Assembly (NCBI GenBank): GCA_017994695.1
Contig: JAGOKF010000035.1
Span: 1 to 38,769 of the forward strand
DNA from: Myxococcota bacterium
Lineage (GTDB): Bacteria; Myxococcota_A; UBA9042; DTJE01
Reading direction: 5' to 3'
DNA length: 38,769 nucleotides
The notes beneath the pieces are model-generated. The model was not told where the DNA came from. It made no database searches and was given only the letters and a program-made list of their open reading frames with translations. The position numbers and the translations under genes are program-made. Below are positions 1,431 to 8,197 of this stretch, one piece after another. Numbering within the stretch: position 1 is the stretch's first letter; every line of letters starts with the position of its first letter.

Positions 1431-3254
1431 CTACCGGCAGCACTGGGGCGGAGGGGGCAGCCCGTAGTCGCACTCGCAGCAGGGGGGCGGCGTGCAGGGC
1501 TTGTCGCAGCACTCGGCCCGGAGGTCCGGGGGGATGGACCCGGGGGCGCTCCGGCACGGCAGTCCGCTGCAGTCGGGTGCTGCGGAGTCCGCCGGCCCGG
1601 GGTCCGTCGGCGGAACGTCTGCCGGGCCCTCGCAGCAGGCCTTCCAGACCTCGTCGGGGATGACCCCGTACTCGCAGGCGCAGCAGACCGCGGAGCAGTC
1701 GATCGCGTCCGGTCCGGCCTCTCCGGAAGCCGGGTCGGAGGCCCCGGGATCGGCCGTGGAGGGCACGTCCGCGGGACCCTCCTCGGGCTGAACCGTGTCG
1801 GCCGGGCCCTCGCAGCAGGCCTTCCAGACCTCGTCGGGGATCACGCCGTAGTCGCACGCGCAGCAGACGGAGGAGCAGTCGATGGTCTCCCGGCCTTCGT
1901 CGGTCGCCGGGACCTCCGGCAATCCCGGATCGGCGGGCACGAGGTCCGGGGAACCGGGGTCGAAGACCTCCCCGGGGGTCCCCGGGTCCGAGGCGTCGGC
2001 CGGCCCGGAGTCCGGGGGCGCGGCCTCGACGGGGATGTCCCTGCCGGCGTCGCTTCCCGCCGAGGGTTCGCAACCGGGGATCGCGGCGACCATCACCGCG
2101 GCCACGGCGGCCCTGGCGCCCCGGATCACCGCCTCCCGGAATCCCGGCCGGGCGTCCAGGGAACGGATGCGCCAGTCGCAGTAGGGGTCCTCCGTGACCG
2201 CTCCGGTGAACGCCACGGCCACGCACTTCGCCCCGCCCCGGCAGCGGGCCCCATGGCGACAGGTCCGGCAGGCTCCGGTGAGGTCCCGGATCCCCTGGTC
2301 CCGGTTGAAGGCGAAGGCGCCCGGACGGAACCACCAGTGGGACAGCGGGGCCTCCCGGAGACTCCCCTCCCGAAACGGGTCCTCGGGACCCGTCCGGGCC
2401 TGCAGGGACAGGCATCCCTTGATCCCGCCGTCGGACTCGATGCCCAGGGCCCGGATACCCGCCTGGCAGCCGTGCCAGGCCTCGGGGCGGCCGCGCCAGC
2501 CCCATCCCCGGAGGGAGCGGTCCGCGTCGGTGCAATAGCCGATGGAGTCGCCGACGGCGACGTGGATGCCGCCCGCCGCCTTCATCCGCACCAGGAGGTC
2601 CACCAGTCCGGGCACCTGGCGCGGCGAGATCACCCAGTCCTCCCGGTCCTTCAGGGCTCCCATGGGTTTCCCCAGCTGGAAGCGGATCTGGGAGGCGCCC
2701 AGGTCGATGGCCAGCCGGCGGAGGGATTCCAGCCAGGCCAGGTTCAGCCGATGCACCGTGGCCAGGACCGCCACGGGCATCCCCGCGGCCCGGAGTTGCC
2801 CGATGCCCCGGACGGCGGCCCGGAAGGATCCGGGGCCCCGGATGGCGTCGTGTATCGCCTCGGGACCATCGAGGCTGACCCCGACGTTGGCCAGGCCGGC
2901 GTCCGCCAGTCGCCCGGCGACCCGGTCGTCCACCAGCGTGCCGTTGGAAACCAGGTTCACCGCGAGCCCCCGGCGGACTCCCTCCCGGGCGATCGCTTCC
3001 CAGTCGTCCCGGATCAGGGGTTCTCCGCCCGAAAGGGTCAGCAGTTCGCCCCCCAGGTCCGCCAGTTGGCCCACCACCTCCAGGCACTCGGCGGTGGACA
3101 ACTCGTCTTCCCGAGCCCGTCCCGCCCGGGAACCGCAGTGCCGGCAGGACAGGTTGCACGCGAGGGTGATCTCCCAGACGGTGTTCCGGGGGCGCCAGTC
3201 CCGCGGCAGGACTTCCGGGCCGGGACAGCCCGGCGGATTGCGGGGAAGGGGCAT
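1431..3254 (-). CDS. radical SAM/SPASM enzyme fused to a lipobox and a Cys-rich repeat tail
   Basis: The 607-residue protein starts at an ATG preceded by GAGGTGAC. Residues 25-200 carry a radical SAM core: Cys33-x3-Cys37-x2-Cys40 binds the 4Fe-4S cluster, and Gly-Gly-Glu-Pro lies at 76-79. A SPASM-type Cys set for extra clusters follows (Cys263, Cys281, Cys329, Cys332, Cys338, Cys344, Cys359). Radical SAM/SPASM enzymes often modify peptides. Unusually, the frame continues into a hydrophobic stretch ending Ala-Ile-Pro-Gly-Cys395, which resembles a lipoprotein signal. Next comes an Asp/Pro/Gly-rich linker (396-457), two nearly identical Cys-rich repeats (458-486 and 518-546) and a divergent third (561-606). 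The last 148 residues hold 22 Cys. The tail looks like a multi-core substrate, so this may be a maturase joined to its own target; that is inference. An in-frame internal start giving a separate lipoprotein is the main alternative. Confidence 0.85.
   Translation of the reverse strand: MPLPRNPPGCPGPEVLPRDWRPRNTVWEITLACNLSCRHCGSRAGRAREDELSTAECLEVVGQLADLGGELLTLSGGEPLIRDDWEAIAREGVRRGLAVNLVSNGTLVDDRVAGRLADAGLANVGVSLDGPEAIHDAIRGPGSFRAAVRGIGQLRAAGMPVAVLATVHRLNLAWLESLRRLAIDLGASQIRFQLGKPMGALKDREDWVISPRQVPGLVDLLVRMKAAGGIHVAVGDSIGYCTDADRSLRGWGWRGRPEAWHGCQAGIRALGIESDGGIKGCLSLQARTGPEDPFREGSLREAPLSHWWFRPGAFAFNRDQGIRDLTGACRTCRHGARCRGGAKCVAVAFTGAVTEDPYCDWRIRSLDARPGFREAVIRGARAAVAAVMVAAIPGCEPSAGSDAGRDIPVEAAPPDSGPADASDPGTPGEVFDPGSPDLVPADPGLPEVPATDEGRETIDCSSVCCACDYGVIPDEVWKACCEGPADTVQPEEGPADVPSTADPGASDPASGEAGPDAIDCSAVCCACEYGVIPDEVWKACCEGPADVPPTDPGPADSAAPDCSGLPCRSAPGSIPPDLRAECCDKPCTPPPCCECDYGLPPPPQCCR
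1617..1883 (-). repeat. tandem coding repeat, 180-base period, Cys-rich
   Basis: Two copies of a Cys-rich unit lie exactly 180 bases (60 residues) apart, at 1617-1703 and 1797-1883. The protein pattern is Ile-Asp-Cys-Ser-x-Val-Cys-Cys-Ala-Cys-x-Tyr-Gly-Val-Ile-Pro-Asp-Glu-Val-Trp-Lys, then Ala-Cys-Cys-Glu-Gly-Pro-Ala-Asp. The first 41 bases of the blocks beginning at 1621 and 1801 are identical, so the duplication is recent or kept even. A third, diverged unit occupies about 1434-1575. Confidence 0.9.
2127..2137 (-). promoter_or_regulatory. possible internal ribosome binding site and GTG start for a lipoprotein
   Basis: A GGGAGG lies two bases before an in-frame GTG (codon 376 of the radical SAM gene). 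Starting here gives Met-Ile-Arg-Gly-Ala-Arg, a short hydrophobic run and Ile-Pro-Gly-Cys, which together make a compact 20-residue lipoprotein signal peptide. The product would be a 232-residue Cys-rich lipoprotein. The two-base spacing is shorter than ideal, so the call is tentative. Confidence 0.3.
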
Positions 3255-3454
3255 GGGTCACCTCGGCGGGAGACAGAACATGGTAGCGGTCCGCTCCCGG
3301 GGAATCCAGGGCCCCGTGATGGGTCTTCCGGTCCCAAGATCCCAGCCGCCCCGGATCCCTGCAGGACCTTCTGGGAGCCTGCCGGCCGGGGCTTCAACGG
3401 GGCCCTGCCATGCCTGGAATGGCCGTCGGAAGCGGCGGCCCGGCCCTCGGGTCG

Positions 3455-4717
3455 TCACCTGGGTGGGTCCAGGGCGTCCACGGCGTAGCCCGTCAACTCG
3501 GTGTATCCCTCCCCGGCCAGCACCCGTTCTCCGGCGGTGCCGGACAGCCGGGTCTGTCCCTCCCAATAGTTCTGGGCCAGGTTGTGCATCTCCTGGTCGT
3601 CCACGGAGGTGACCACGGCGATGCGCCAGTCCCCCTGGGGGATCCGGATGTCCCAGTCCAGGGGGTAGGTGCCGCCGGAGTGGGGGCTGGTCCAGGTCCG
3701 CCTGGGCGTGATGGTGAAGGCGTCCATGCCTTCCAGCGGGGTCAGGGTGCCGTCGGGGGCCACCAGGGTGCCGGCCTTCAGGGACAGCACCCCGTCCCAG
3801 TCCGTGAACTGGAAGAGCATCACCTCCCATCCGTCTTCGAACTGCATGCTCCACCAGTCCCAGCCCCGGAAGTCCTGCATGTCGAAGTCGCCCCACTGGT
3901 GGTCCATCCAGGCCTGGCCGGTCACCGCGTGGTCGCCCCCGGGCGTGGACAGGGTGCCCCGGGCCTCCATCCGCGTGAACGAGTAGTACCAGCTGGTCCC
4001 GCCGGTGTCGGCCATCGGGATGATCCCGTCCGTGCCGTGACGGGCGGGGCGCTTCCGCGGTTCCAGGGCGAGGTCGAAGGCCCAGGGCGTCGCCTTGCCG
4101 TCCTTCTCCTTTCCCGTGGGGATCTCGCCCCGGATGCGGTCGCGGCCATCCCCTCCCAGTTCCAGGTGGCAGAAATCGACCTCCAGGTCGATGGGATCCC
4201 GGCTCCAGGTCCGGGGCGCGAGGGAGATCGTGTCCGCGTGGAAATGATCCCCGGCATCGAGGTCCACGATCCCCACGTGGCACATCCAACCGAGTCCCGG
4301 CGTCCCGAACATCTCGGTGAAGTCGTACTGGAAGATGGTGACCTGGAAGCCCCACTCGCGGTCCCCGTCCCGCAGGTGCCCGGTGTAGTACCACCACTCG
4401 GTGCGCTCGCCGTGGATCCCTGCGTCCCGGGGAAACACGATGGAGGTGGGTTCGCACCGGCCCCCGTTGCAGTAGGCGTCCGGGCCGCAGTCCGTCCGCC
4501 GGATCGACCCGTCCGTGCAGGCCACGATCTGGTTGCCGTCGCAGGCCGCCGGGGCCGGATCGCAGGCCTCGAGTCGCCCATCCCCATCCCCCGGGTCCGT
4601 CCCGGAGTCCCGGGGTTCGCATCCCAGTGCCGCGACGGTCCCGAGGATCAGGGCGGTCGCCAGGGGCCACCAGGGGGGCCTGGTTCCGGTTCCGGGAGGC
4701 CTTGCAGCGATGGGCAT
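3455..4717 (-). CDS. secreted CrtC/AttH-type lipocalin-like lipoprotein
   Basis: The 420-residue protein starts at an ATG with GGAGGGG eight bases upstream; a longer in-frame start at 4774 lacks such a site. The N-terminus is a lipoprotein signal ending Ala-Ala-Leu-Gly-Cys33. A short Cys-rich segment follows, of the kind seen in myxobacterial surface lipoproteins (CDGNQIVACTDG, then CGPDAYCNGGRC). The main domain matches the CrtC/AttH (hydroxyneurosporene-synthase-like) fold: HGERTEWWYYTGHL near its start and the later WMDHQWGDF are hallmark motifs. Members include carotenoid hydratase and uncharacterised secreted proteins. No carotenoid genes lie nearby and the protein is exported, so carotenoid hydration is unlikely and the substrate is unknown. 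The 200 bases downstream, before the radical SAM gene, hold nothing recognisable. Confidence 0.8.
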   Translation of the reverse strand: MPIAARPPGTGTRPPWWPLATALILGTVAALGCEPRDSGTDPGDGDGRLEACDPAPAACDGNQIVACTDGSIRRTDCGPDAYCNGGRCEPTSIVFPRDAGIHGERTEWWYYTGHLRDGDREWGFQVTIFQYDFTEMFGTPGLGWMCHVGIVDLDAGDHFHADTISLAPRTWSRDPIDLEVDFCHLELGGDGRDRIRGEIPTGKEKDGKATPWAFDLALEPRKRPARHGTDGIIPMADTGGTSWYYSFTRMEARGTLSTPGGDHAVTGQAWMDHQWGDFDMQDFRGWDWWSMQFEDGWEVMLFQFTDWDGVLSLKAGTLVAPDGTLTPLEGMDAFTITPRRTWTSPHSGGTYPLDWDIRIPQGDWRIAVVTSVDDQEMHNLAQNYWEGQTRLSGTAGERVLAGEGYTELTGYAVDALDPPR

Positions 4718-4746
4718 CGGGGAATCCCCTCCGGAGGTGCTGTCGA

Positions 4747-4776
4747 AGTGTAGTTCCCATGCACGACGAGGCACAA
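4747..4776 (-). promoter_or_regulatory. predicted sigma-70-type promoter for the CrtC/AttH-like gene
   Basis: Read on the minus strand, TTGTGC (4771-4776) is separated by 18 bases from TACACT (4747-4752), about 30 bases before the ATG at 4717. The -35 match is weak. The -10 is the same hexamer as the promoter predicted at 19074-19102. Confidence 0.35.
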
Positions 4777-4832: not shown

Positions 4833-5960
4833 CTAGTCCCAGCGGCCGTGGCCTCCCAGCCAGCCCTGGCGACGGAACCACCAGATCATCGCCCCTCCCA
4901 CCGCCAGGGCGACGCCCCAGAAGAACGGGTACCCGAACCGCCAGGAGAGTTCCGGCATGTTGAACGGAGAGGCCGCGGTGTCGAAGTTCATCCCGTACAC
5001 GCCGGCCAGGAACGAGAGGGGCATGAACACGGTCGCGATGATGGTCAGGACCTTCATCACGGCGTTGAGCCGGTTTCCCACCGACGACTGGTAGGCCTCC
5101 ATCAGTCCGGCGACGATCTCCCGGTAGGTCTCGATCATGTCCAGCACCTGGAAACTGTGATCCAGGCAGTCCCGGAGGTACATTCGCGTGTCCGCGGTGA
5201 TCCGGGGGGAGTCCTCCCGGAGCAGGGAGGCCAGGGCGTCCCGGAGGGGGAAGGCGGCCCTCCGCAGGGACAGAAGGTCCCGCTTGACCTGGTGGATGGC
5301 CTGGATGCAGTCGCTGGAAGGACGGTCGATGATCGTGTCCTCCAGGTCGTCCAGCCGTTCCCCGAAGGCCTCCAGCAGCGGGAAATACCCGTCCACGACC
5401 GCGTCGAGAAGGGCCCAGGCCAGGAAGTCCGGCCCCATCCGCCGCAGGCGGCCCTCGCCGCTGCGGAGCCGCGCCCGGACCGGCTCCAGGCAGTCCCCGG
5501 GCTGCCGCTGCTGGAAGGTCAGCACGAAGTCCGGCCCCAGGAACAGGGACAACTGTTCCGACGCGATTCCCCGGTCCAGGGGCAGGAGCATCCGGGAGAC
5601 CACGAAGAGACAGTCCCCATAGCGTTCGGCCTTGGGGCGCTGGATGGGGTTCAGGACGTCCTGGACCGCGAGGCCGTGCAGGCCGAACACCCGGGCCACC
5701 TCCCCGATCCGGTCGGGGTCGGCCAGTCCGTCCACGTCCACCCAGGTGATGGCCCGGCGCCCTTTCCACCGGGCCAGGTCCTCCGGAAGCAAGACCTCCG
5801 CTTCCTCCAGCGATTCCGAATCGTAGGAAAAGACCCGGATCCTCGCAGGAGCCCATCGGTCGGGCTCCCGGGGAGCCGGGGGTGCCGGGAGTTCCGGCTC
5901 GGGCCCCGAGACCCGCCGGGGAGGCAAGGCGAACCATCGCCGGTAGAGATTCAGATCCAT
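4833..5960 (-). CDS. corA: CorA-family divalent metal ion transporter
   Basis: The 375-residue protein has the CorA layout: a long, soluble, mostly helical N-terminal domain, then two C-terminal membrane helices separated by a short loop. The signature Tyr-Gly-Met-Asn-Phe sits at the end of the first helix and forms the ion selectivity filter. A positively charged Trp-Phe-Arg-Arg segment follows the second helix, as expected. The protein would form a pentamer in the inner membrane and carry Mg2+ (or Co2+/Ni2+); the sequence does not decide the ion. The start is supported by GGAGGATCCCG directly before the ATG. A TAGGAT about 28 bases upstream may be its -10 element. The gene is divergent from the sulfatase-like gene at 6044. 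Confidence 0.9.
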   Translation of the reverse strand: MDLNLYRRWFALPPRRVSGPEPELPAPPAPREPDRWAPARIRVFSYDSESLEEAEVLLPEDLARWKGRRAITWVDVDGLADPDRIGEVARVFGLHGLAVQDVLNPIQRPKAERYGDCLFVVSRMLLPLDRGIASEQLSLFLGPDFVLTFQQRQPGDCLEPVRARLRSGEGRLRRMGPDFLAWALLDAVVDGYFPLLEAFGERLDDLEDTIIDRPSSDCIQAIHQVKRDLLSLRRAAFPLRDALASLLREDSPRITADTRMYLRDCLDHSFQVLDMIETYREIVAGLMEAYQSSVGNRLNAVMKVLTIIATVFMPLSFLAGVYGMNFDTAASPFNMPELSWRFGYPFFWGVALAVGGAMIWWFRRQGWLGGHGRWD

Positions 5961-5995
5961 CGGGATCCTCCGGGGGAAGGCCCGGCGATCCTAAC

Positions 5996-6024
5996 TTGAA
6001 GATGGCGGACCGGTGTCCTATGCT
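5996..6024 (+). promoter_or_regulatory. predicted sigma-70-type promoter for the sulfatase-like gene
   Basis: TTGAAG (5996-6001), a 17-base spacer and TATGCT (6019-6024) precede the GTG start at 6044. The implied leader is about 13 bases and includes the GGAGG site. A candidate minus-strand -10 for corA (5988-5993) lies alongside. Confidence 0.45.
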
Positions 6025-6043
6025 TCCGTCCCGTGGAGGCGGG

Positions 6044-8197
6044 GTGACGGATTCGCGACCACAGGGCATCGACGACGGCCGTGCGGGGATCCTGGGGCCC
6101 CTCGCCTGGGTGCTGGCAGGAAGCCTGGCCACGGGGCTGCTGGACCTTTTCGCCGAACCGGGATTCCCCGGGGATGCCATTCCGGGGGCCGGGTCGGGGA
6201 TCCTGATCAGCCTGCTGCTCCATCTCTTCTGGGGATTCCCGTCGGGGATGCTGATCGCGCTGGGGGTCGCCCGGGCGGCCAGGCTCCGGAGCCGGATCGG
6301 CCCGGAAAGACTGAACGGTCCGCTGCTGTGGCTGCTGGCGGCGCTTCCTGTGCTGGTGCTGGGGATCGCCCTGGGGGGACCGGCGTTGGAGCGGGTGACG
6401 GACCCGGCTCTCCGGGGGCTCCTGCTGGCCACCGGAGCGATGGGGCTGCTGGCCGGCGGCGGCCTGGTCGGCGCGCTGCTGGTCCGGATCGCCGCCCGCC
6501 TGGGGCTGTCGTCCTCCCCGACGGCCTTCCGCCTGCTGGGAATCCTGGTCGCCCTGGGGCTGACCGCCTGGTGGACCTTCCTCTCGGGGAGGTTCCGCGC
6601 CGGGGGGCTCCAGGGGCTTTTGTTCCTTCCCGCTGCCGGGACGCTGCTGCTGGCCATTCCTGCCCTGGGGCTCGCCTGGCCTCTCTGGCCGTCCCGACTG
6701 CATCCCGGGGACCTGCGGTGGTGGACCCGGTGGCTGGTTCTCGGGGCCGGGATTCCCCTGGTCTCCCTGATCCTCGCCGAGGGAACCGCCCGCCTGGATC
6801 CGGACGGGGTGCGGTGGGCCGCCGGCCGGTCCTCCTTCTCGGTCCAGGTGCTGATCGCCATTCGGGACGTCGTGGACCTGGACGGGGACCGGGCGAGCCC
6901 GATCCTGGGCGGCGGGGATTGCGACGACCTGGACTTCCTGCGGTATCCCGGCGCGGTGGACGAGCCCGGGGACGGGGTGGACCAGAACTGCGACGGGCAG
7001 GATGCGGGGATGACCGAGGCCGAGACGGCCTCCCCCTACGCCCTGGCCCCCGAGGAGGGCCGGCGCCTGAACGTCGTCCTGATCTGCGTCGATGCCTTCC
7101 GGGCGGACCGGGCGTCCTTCCTGGGGTATGCCCGGAAGACGACGCCGCACATCGAGGCCCTGGCCCGGACCTCCTGGGTCTTCGAAAACGCCATCGCGCC
7201 CTCCTCGACCACCCGGGAGTCGATCCCTCCGCTCTTCACGGGCCGCTACGCCTCGGGGATTGCATGGGAGGGGGAGTCCCGGATCCGCCAGGTGGCGCCG
7301 TCCCAGGGCCTCCTGGCCGAGGTGCTGCTGAACGCCGGCTGGCAGACCCTGGCGGTGGCCGACGAGTGGCTGCTGAAGTTCCTGCCGACCGTGATGCGCG
7401 GGTTCCAGAAGATGGACGTGGCCTACGGCCTGGGCCACTGGCGGGAGTACGGCCAGAAGGCCGGGCCCTTCACCCTCTTCGACGCCGTGCAGAAACTGCT
7501 GCAGCGGGACGCGAAACGCCCGTTCCTGCTGTACGCCCATTTCGAGGCGGCCCACCATCCCTACGTCCCCCACGAGGGCTTCCAGTCCTTCGGCAACCGT
7601 CCCTCGGACCTCTACGACCAGGAACTGGCCTATGCCGACCGCTACGTGGGGCTCCTGCTGGAGTTCCTGGAGACCGAGGGGCTGATGAATGACACCGTCG
7701 TGGTGATCTTCGGGGACCACGGGGAGGAGTTCCAGGAGCACGGGGGCAGCCAGCACAGCCGGACGCTCCACGGCGAGAGCGTGCGGGTCCCCCTGGTGGT
7801 CCGGATCCCGGGCCAGGCCCCCCGGCGGGTGAAGACGCGCGTGTCGCTGGTCGATGTCTTCCCGACGCTGATGGACGCCCTGGGACTGCGCCCCGAGGAG
7901 CCGAAGCCCCAGGGATTCAGCCTGTACCACTACCTGGACCGGGCCGACCCTTTCCCGGATCGGCCGATCTTCGCGGAACTGATGGTGAACAACGAGGGCA
8001 CGCTGCGCTACCGGAAGGCGATCTACCAGGGACGGTACAAGCTGATGTGGGACATGTCCTCGGACGAGATGCTGCTCTACGACGTGGTGGCGGATCCCGG
8101 GGAGCATCGCCCGCTGGAGGAACCGGAGGTCCAGGACCGGCTGTTCCAGGTCCTGTCGGACTTCGTCGCCCGGGGGACCCACCGCCCCGGAACCTGA
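6044..8197 (+). CDS. membrane-anchored sulfatase/phosphoethanolamine-transferase-fold enzyme with MopE-like motif
   Basis: The 717-residue protein starts at a GTG with GGAGG four bases upstream; longer in-frame starts overlap corA and the promoter. About seven hydrophobic helices fill residues 1-260. Residues about 275-325 carry a MopE-like putative metal-binding motif (DLDGD, then GGGDCDD, YPGAVD and DGVDQNCDG). From about 342 a sulfatase/alkaline-phosphatase-superfamily domain begins (LNVVLICVDAFRAD). Its nucleophile region is Ser-Ser-Thr-Thr-Arg-Glu-Ser near 388, and the metal-binding FGDHGEEFQEHGG follows. A Thr/Ser nucleophile without the Cys-x-Pro-x-Arg sulfatase motif fits phosphoglycerol or phosphoethanolamine transferases better than true sulfatases. 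The substrate, perhaps an envelope glycan or lipid, is unknown. The active domain would face the periplasm. Confidence 0.85.
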   Translation: MTDSRPQGIDDGRAGILGPLAWVLAGSLATGLLDLFAEPGFPGDAIPGAGSGILISLLLHLFWGFPSGMLIALGVARAARLRSRIGPERLNGPLLWLLAALPVLVLGIALGGPALERVTDPALRGLLLATGAMGLLAGGGLVGALLVRIAARLGLSSSPTAFRLLGILVALGLTAWWTFLSGRFRAGGLQGLLFLPAAGTLLLAIPALGLAWPLWPSRLHPGDLRWWTRWLVLGAGIPLVSLILAEGTARLDPDGVRWAAGRSSFSVQVLIAIRDVVDLDGDRASPILGGGDCDDLDFLRYPGAVDEPGDGVDQNCDGQDAGMTEAETASPYALAPEEGRRLNVVLICVDAFRADRASFLGYARKTTPHIEALARTSWVFENAIAPSSTTRESIPPLFTGRYASGIAWEGESRIRQVAPSQGLLAEVLLNAGWQTLAVADEWLLKFLPTVMRGFQKMDVAYGLGHWREYGQKAGPFTLFDAVQKLLQRDAKRPFLLYAHFEAAHHPYVPHEGFQSFGNRPSDLYDQELAYADRYVGLLLEFLETEGLMNDTVVVIFGDHGEEFQEHGGSQHSRTLHGESVRVPLVVRIPGQAPRRVKTRVSLVDVFPTLMDALGLRPEEPKPQGFSLYHYLDRADPFPDRPIFAELMVNNEGTLRYRKAIYQGRYKLMWDMSSDEMLLYDVVADPGEHRPLEEPEVQDRLFQVLSDFVARGTHRPGT

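Follow-up and report, generated by a model that had tools for sequence, protein, structure and literature searches.

A Myxococcota radical SAM/SPASM enzyme fused to a repeat-bearing lipoprotein tail that may be its own substrate

The locus described here raises the question of what a radical SAM (rSAM)/SPASM enzyme does with a repeated, Cys-rich lipoprotein tail carried on the same polypeptide. The gene lies on a contig of 38,769 nt from a Myxococcota bacterium (JAGOKF010000035.1, assembly GCA_017994695.1; the whole stretch is called the window below). A sequence-only reading had seen in it an enzyme joined to a candidate substrate, with the tail cysteines as the modified core. The open reading frame proposed there is real, and we add its strand, minus, which had been left unstated (Table 1). 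The enzyme part is matched over the cut-off by Pfam PF04055 (Radical_SAM; E 3.8e-25), and both cysteine sets are complete, as had been claimed: C33-x3-C37-x2-C40 and seven SPASM cysteines between residues 263 and 359. The latter are invariant in homologue set A1 and, except for C344, in set A3; GGEP at residues 76–79 is also conserved. The Pfam search gave no PF13186 match for the window protein; homologues L064, L067 and L073 score above the PF13186 cut-off in a profile search. In the AlphaFold2 model the enzyme part has pLDDT values mostly above 90, followed by a helix at residues 372–390 and a largely disordered tail, the repeats of which are modelled with low confidence. The nearest solved folds are PqqE, SkfB, SuiB and anSME, all of which are SPASM modifiers of peptides or proteins.

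Table 1. Features of the fused gene and its product in the window.
Feature	Position	Strand	Basis or remark
Fused radical SAM/SPASM-lipoprotein gene	1431..3254	minus	607 aa + stop
GAGGTG, Shine-Dalgarno-like, 4 nt before ATG	3259..3264	minus	sequence
Radical SAM + SPASM enzyme domain, residues 22–360	2175..3191	minus	PF04055, AF2 model and fold matches
AdoMet [4Fe-4S] motif CNLSCRHC (C33, C37, C40)	3135..3158	minus	
SPASM cysteines C263, C281, C329, C332, C338, C344, C359	2178..2468	minus	sequence conservation
Predicted internal signal peptide with lipobox, VIRGARAAVAAVMVAAIPG/C395, residues 377–395	2070..2126	minus	homologue conservation and modelled helix 372–390
Acidic Pro/Asp-rich linker, residues 396–458 (63 residues), predicted disordered (pLDDT <50)	1881..2069	minus	
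Tail unit 1, DCSSVCCACDYGVIPDEVWKACC	1812..1880	minus	
Tail unit 2, DCSAVCCACEYGVIPDEVWKACC	1632..1700	minus	
Tail unit 3, DCSGLPCRSAPGSIPPDLRAECC, diverged, residues 562–583, YG lost	1506..1574	minus	counterpart YG units intact in L039–L042 (alignment)
Terminal short unit, CTPPPCCECDYGLPPPPQCC, residues 587–606, C-x4-CC-x-C-x-YG-x2-P...CC	1437..1496	minus	

After the enzyme part follows an Arg-rich and Ala-rich, lipobox-like signal, and the fused homologues keep at this place an Arg, an Ala-rich helix and [GA]C. The reading of the tail as a lipoprotein is supported by this outward-facing signal and by unfused relatives, in which a lipoprotein of the same kind is encoded by a separate gene next to the enzyme gene. 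The 22 cysteines of the tail (residues 460–606) had been arranged into two near-identical units and a diverged one; all three are present, together with a short terminal unit that brings the count to four. Units 1 and 2 are identical at 26 of 28 residues and differ at 7 of 84 bases, and a profile search found no second copy of the Cys unit in the source genome. The tail also has YG at positions 469, 529 and 597, each with a Pro at +4, a YG count reached by 2 of 1000 residue shuffles (0 of 1000 for most homologues).

The fusion is conserved. Among the 53 relatives searched, full-length co-linear homologues with about 46–66% identity occur both in other genera of the same family and in a second family within the class. 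GTDB genomes, when scanned, yielded 28 loci, in MAGs whose titles read Myxococcota, Myxococcales, Polyangiaceae, 'Deltaproteobacteria' or uncultured proteobacterium, and nearly all of the complete loci are fused; L066 stops at a contig edge within the signal helix, and L059 alone has a broken frame. About 30 fused homologues are known in this way, from Myxococcota MAGs of several families, and the occurrence of full-length fused homologues in many genomes rules out a frameshift or an assembly artefact. In a tree of the rSAMs all fused proteins fall in one clade (28 rows, support 81/75, which is only moderate), apart from the tail-less rSAMs, with an inner fused clade of 23 rows supported at 99/97. 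The layout of an enzyme with a substrate-like repeat tail, which had been remarked on as unusual, is a conserved fusion of single-clade origin. We looked for a transporter, a peptidase and PqqD nearby and found no neighbour gene that recurs across the fused loci beyond close relatives, so the fusion appears to be self-contained. In one fused homologue (L073:5806-7965, plus strand) YGVxxP motifs of the tail flank a PrcB_C domain (PF14343).

The common denominator of the fused tails is [D/E]-Y-G-[V/I]-x-P, not Cys. The 29 fused tails contain 136 YG pairs, of which 114 have D/E before, 101 have V/I after and 110 have Pro at +4, and the Tyr of these tails falls mostly within YG. In most of the tails the YG count is higher than in all, or almost all, of 1000 shuffles, the clear exceptions being the minimal Polyangiaceae-type tails of L070 and L076, which have one YG each and are not above chance. 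Four fused proteins (L062, L067, L071 and L074) lack Cys altogether beyond the lipobox, yet have 4–7 YG motifs; other fused tails combine Cys units with plain YGxxP repeats. Within the Cys unit six Cys are invariant (set A2), and the Cys count is even in 27 of the 29 tails, counts that are not independent as the proteins are related. Of 379 Myxococcota genomes, 14 contain the Cys unit, always in an rSAM open reading frame or, once, in a contig-end piece. No stand-alone Cys-unit lipoprotein occurs in these 379 genomes; the contig-end piece (L097) fits the missing end of a truncated fusion in the same genome (L087). Cys-unit tails lacking an rSAM partner, the case that the sequence-only reading had set against itself, were thus not seen.

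The fused tails have a separate-gene equivalent beside related rSAMs. Searching 237 genomes with TIGR04133 gave many rSAM loci, and at many of the 20 that were fetched for neighbourhood reading there is an adjoining separate lipoprotein with a lipobox and then YGxP. Most of these separate lipoproteins (set A4) have a short, zinc-ribbon-like N terminus (CPxC..HVR..CPFC) before the signal, and beyond the lipobox they mostly lack Cys. The zinc-ribbon YGxP lipoproteins are not covered by any model in Pfam or NCBIfam. A profile of them matched in 46 of the 189 genomes searched; there were 73 strong matches in 30 genomes, at least 44 of them within 4 kb of an rSAM and at least one such in each of the 30 genomes, some of which supplied the profile and are therefore not all independent. 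An rSAM was recognised by motif at 26 of 30 fetched YGxP-lipoprotein loci. The extra, unlinked lipoprotein copies hint at substrates that act in trans.

A large Myxococcota lipoprotein family with such unlinked extra copies was seen at L116, L117, L118, L120, L121, L123, L124 and L127 (e.g. L117:3156-3665, plus strand), and its plan is an N-terminal CPxCxRHVRxxExxCPFC ribbon, an internal lipobox and YGxP repeats, with SPASM rSAM neighbours. Natural variation of the motif is found at L119 (1612-2551, plus strand), where two ribbon lipoproteins beside an rSAM have DYAGGP and DYGSAN in place of YGxP. At L122 (4365-5216, plus strand) a lipoprotein near an rSAM on the opposite strand alternates KYGIP, LYGIP and DYGIP with six acidic double-disulfide repeats (NF033662); apart from this case, no clear YGxP partner was seen for the unfused sister clade nearest to the fused one. 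The source organism's own family also contains a paralogous clade of tail-less rSAMs (L029, L034–L036 and G000:C151, L030:5486-7129, plus strand), for which no convincing YGxP partner was found.

TIGR04133 (rSAM_w_lipo) and TIGR04134 (lipo_with_rSAM, titled 'radical SAM-associated putative lipoprotein') are hypothetical equivalogs in NCBIfam. At one locus, L110, both are represented by members: the rSAM scores 555.5 bits (cut-off 425), and two adjacent lipoproteins score 54.8 and 66.0 bits (cut-off 39.8). These two lipoproteins carry YGTP after the lipobox (ACIVEYGTPYAEFSLKGKV-like, matching around TAC..EYGTPYAEF.LKG), so YG-P after the lipobox is common to TIGR04134, the zinc-ribbon lipoproteins and the fused tails. 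The window enzyme is below the cut-offs of TIGR04133 (135.4 bits vs 425), TIGR03913 (235.1 vs 591.75) and TIGR04103 (242.4 vs 725). The window tail has no TIGR04134 match at the cut-off of 39.8, and neither the source genome nor the control genomes gave one. In the wide sense the window protein nevertheless has the parts of an rSAM/lipoprotein system, namely a lipobox at C395, a YGxP-type motif and an rSAM, here in the same open reading frame. It resembles the TIGR04133/TIGR04134 pairs in combining a SPASM rSAM with a lipoprotein, the YGxP of the L110 members standing right after the lipobox; it differs in that the pairs are two genes, whereas the window tail is fused, multi-repeat and Cys-elaborated, with YGxxP spacing. 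The Myxococcota pairs of TIGR03913/TIGR04103-like rSAMs and ribbon lipoproteins are similar in having an N-terminal domain before the lipobox, YGxP repeats after it and a SPASM rSAM adjacent, but there the substrate is separate and led by a CPxC..H..CPFC ribbon instead of an enzyme, and the rSAM belongs to a different clade. The sactipeptide and ranthipeptide maturases (SkfB, CteB), PqqE, SuiB and anSME share the radical SAM and SPASM fold; their substrates are separate peptides or proteins with a Cys or other core and without a lipobox.

Thioether links are formed by some SPASM rSAMs, SkfB among them, and the tail cysteines had been taken for a modified core. A SPASM domain making sactionine or ranthipeptide links inside each CxxxCCxC...CC unit would fit with SkfB being the best sequence match and the second-best fold match of the window enzyme in the PDB, and with the six invariant cysteines of the unit. 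We nevertheless consider this unlikely: the conserved thioether-donor Cys by which sactipeptides and ranthipeptides are recognised is lacking in L062, L067, L071 and L074, where the same enzyme has a Cys-free tail with YGxxP kept, the separate-gene substrates mostly carry no Cys beyond the lipobox, and even Cys counts fit disulfides at least as well. Alternatively, the tail could be a periplasmic or surface domain with a structural or metal-binding role that anchors the rSAM to the membrane, while the enzyme acts elsewhere. Cys-rich, even-numbered units could indeed bind metal or form disulfides, and no conserved partner gene points to another substrate; such a role leaves unexplained, however, the Cys-free tails, the recurrent YG and the separate YGxP lipoproteins beside rSAMs, and we hold it to be quite improbable.

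A further option is that the gene gives two products, an rSAM and a lipoprotein translated from an internal start before the signal, with the enzyme acting in trans. In the window a GTG (V377) before the signal would give a lipoprotein signal of standard length, and several homologues have an ATG or GTG nearby, but the position of the start is not conserved among homologues, and the purine-rich GGAGG of the window is only about 2 nt from the GTG. Moreover, L037, L074 and L089 lack any ATG, GTG or TTG between SPASM and lipobox, so in these the tail is translated from the fused frame, and we regard two products as very unlikely.

The tail as substrate is the most economical reading. We suggest that the enzyme and the substrate lipoprotein of an rSAM/lipoprotein system have merged into one polypeptide, and judging from the sequence comparisons it is likely that the enzyme works in cis, modifying its own tail at Tyr-Gly before export and lipidation. 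The N-terminal radical SAM/SPASM domain would fold in the cytoplasm and act on its own tail, or on the tail of another copy, at the [D/E]YG[V/I]xP repeats. The modified residue would most likely be the Tyr, the Gly next to it, or both, since no other position is invariant, and modification would come before export, because an iron-sulfur enzyme faces the cytoplasm. The internal signal would then direct the tail outward through Sec; LspA may cleave ahead of C395, and the repeat lipoprotein, once matured, would be lipid-anchored in the envelope, possibly displayed on the surface. The Ala-rich, weakly hydrophobic signal could allow slow export, and cutting by LspA would release the enzyme once it had processed a single substrate. 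Where the genes are split, a ribbon domain precedes the internal lipobox of the lipoprotein, and in the fused form the enzyme would take that place. The tail cysteines probably pair as disulfides after export.

Some features speak against self-modification. YG is short, the spacing of the Pro varies (+3 or +4), and in the third tail unit of the window protein YG is gone while the Cys are kept. The single YG of the L070 and L076 tails, the moderate outer support of the fused clade and, L122 aside, the want of a clear YGxP partner in the nearest sister clade count against it too. An internal signal after a folded domain of 370 residues is also unusual, and its cleavage is something that we only infer. 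The fuller proposal, a self-modifying, self-exporting lipoprotein with the tail YG modified once and then cut by signal peptidase II, belonging to a new class of surface modification with TIGR04133/04134 as its split form, is put forward tentatively.

In fungal borosins of types I–III (OphMA) an enzyme is fused to its own C-terminal core, and type IV are split relatives (PMC8429565). The window protein shares with the fused borosins the joining of a modifying enzyme to its own presumed C-terminal core and the existence of split relatives, a likeness that we know from the layout; the borosins differ in using an alpha-N-methyltransferase instead of a radical SAM enzyme and in having no lipoprotein signal. 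If our reading is true, the system would be a radical SAM counterpart of the fused borosins that ends in the cell envelope and not in a small peptide product. In the open-licence literature searched we found no paper describing such a fusion, no mention of rSAM-fused precursors or of TIGR04133/04134, and no reported modification for either. Judged by its sequence, the fused system appears to be a self-modifying form of a system for modifying surface proteins that has hardly been studied and whose TIGR04133/04134 pairs carry only provisional names. The fusion pairs one enzyme with one substrate without guesswork, and the comparison of fused and split forms narrows the likely target to the Tyr-Gly motif, so that a single expression construct could reveal the chemistry of rSAM-lipoprotein systems.

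Two other genes of the window are mentioned for completeness. Upstream of the fused gene and on the same strand lies a gene for a CrtC/lipocalin-like protein with a lipoprotein-like N terminus (3455-4774, minus strand), which is not kept beside the fused gene at other loci. Positions 5882-8197 (plus strand) encode a member of the sulfatase family that has hydrophobic stretches at its N terminus and a Cu-binding motif of the MopE-like kind (PF11617).
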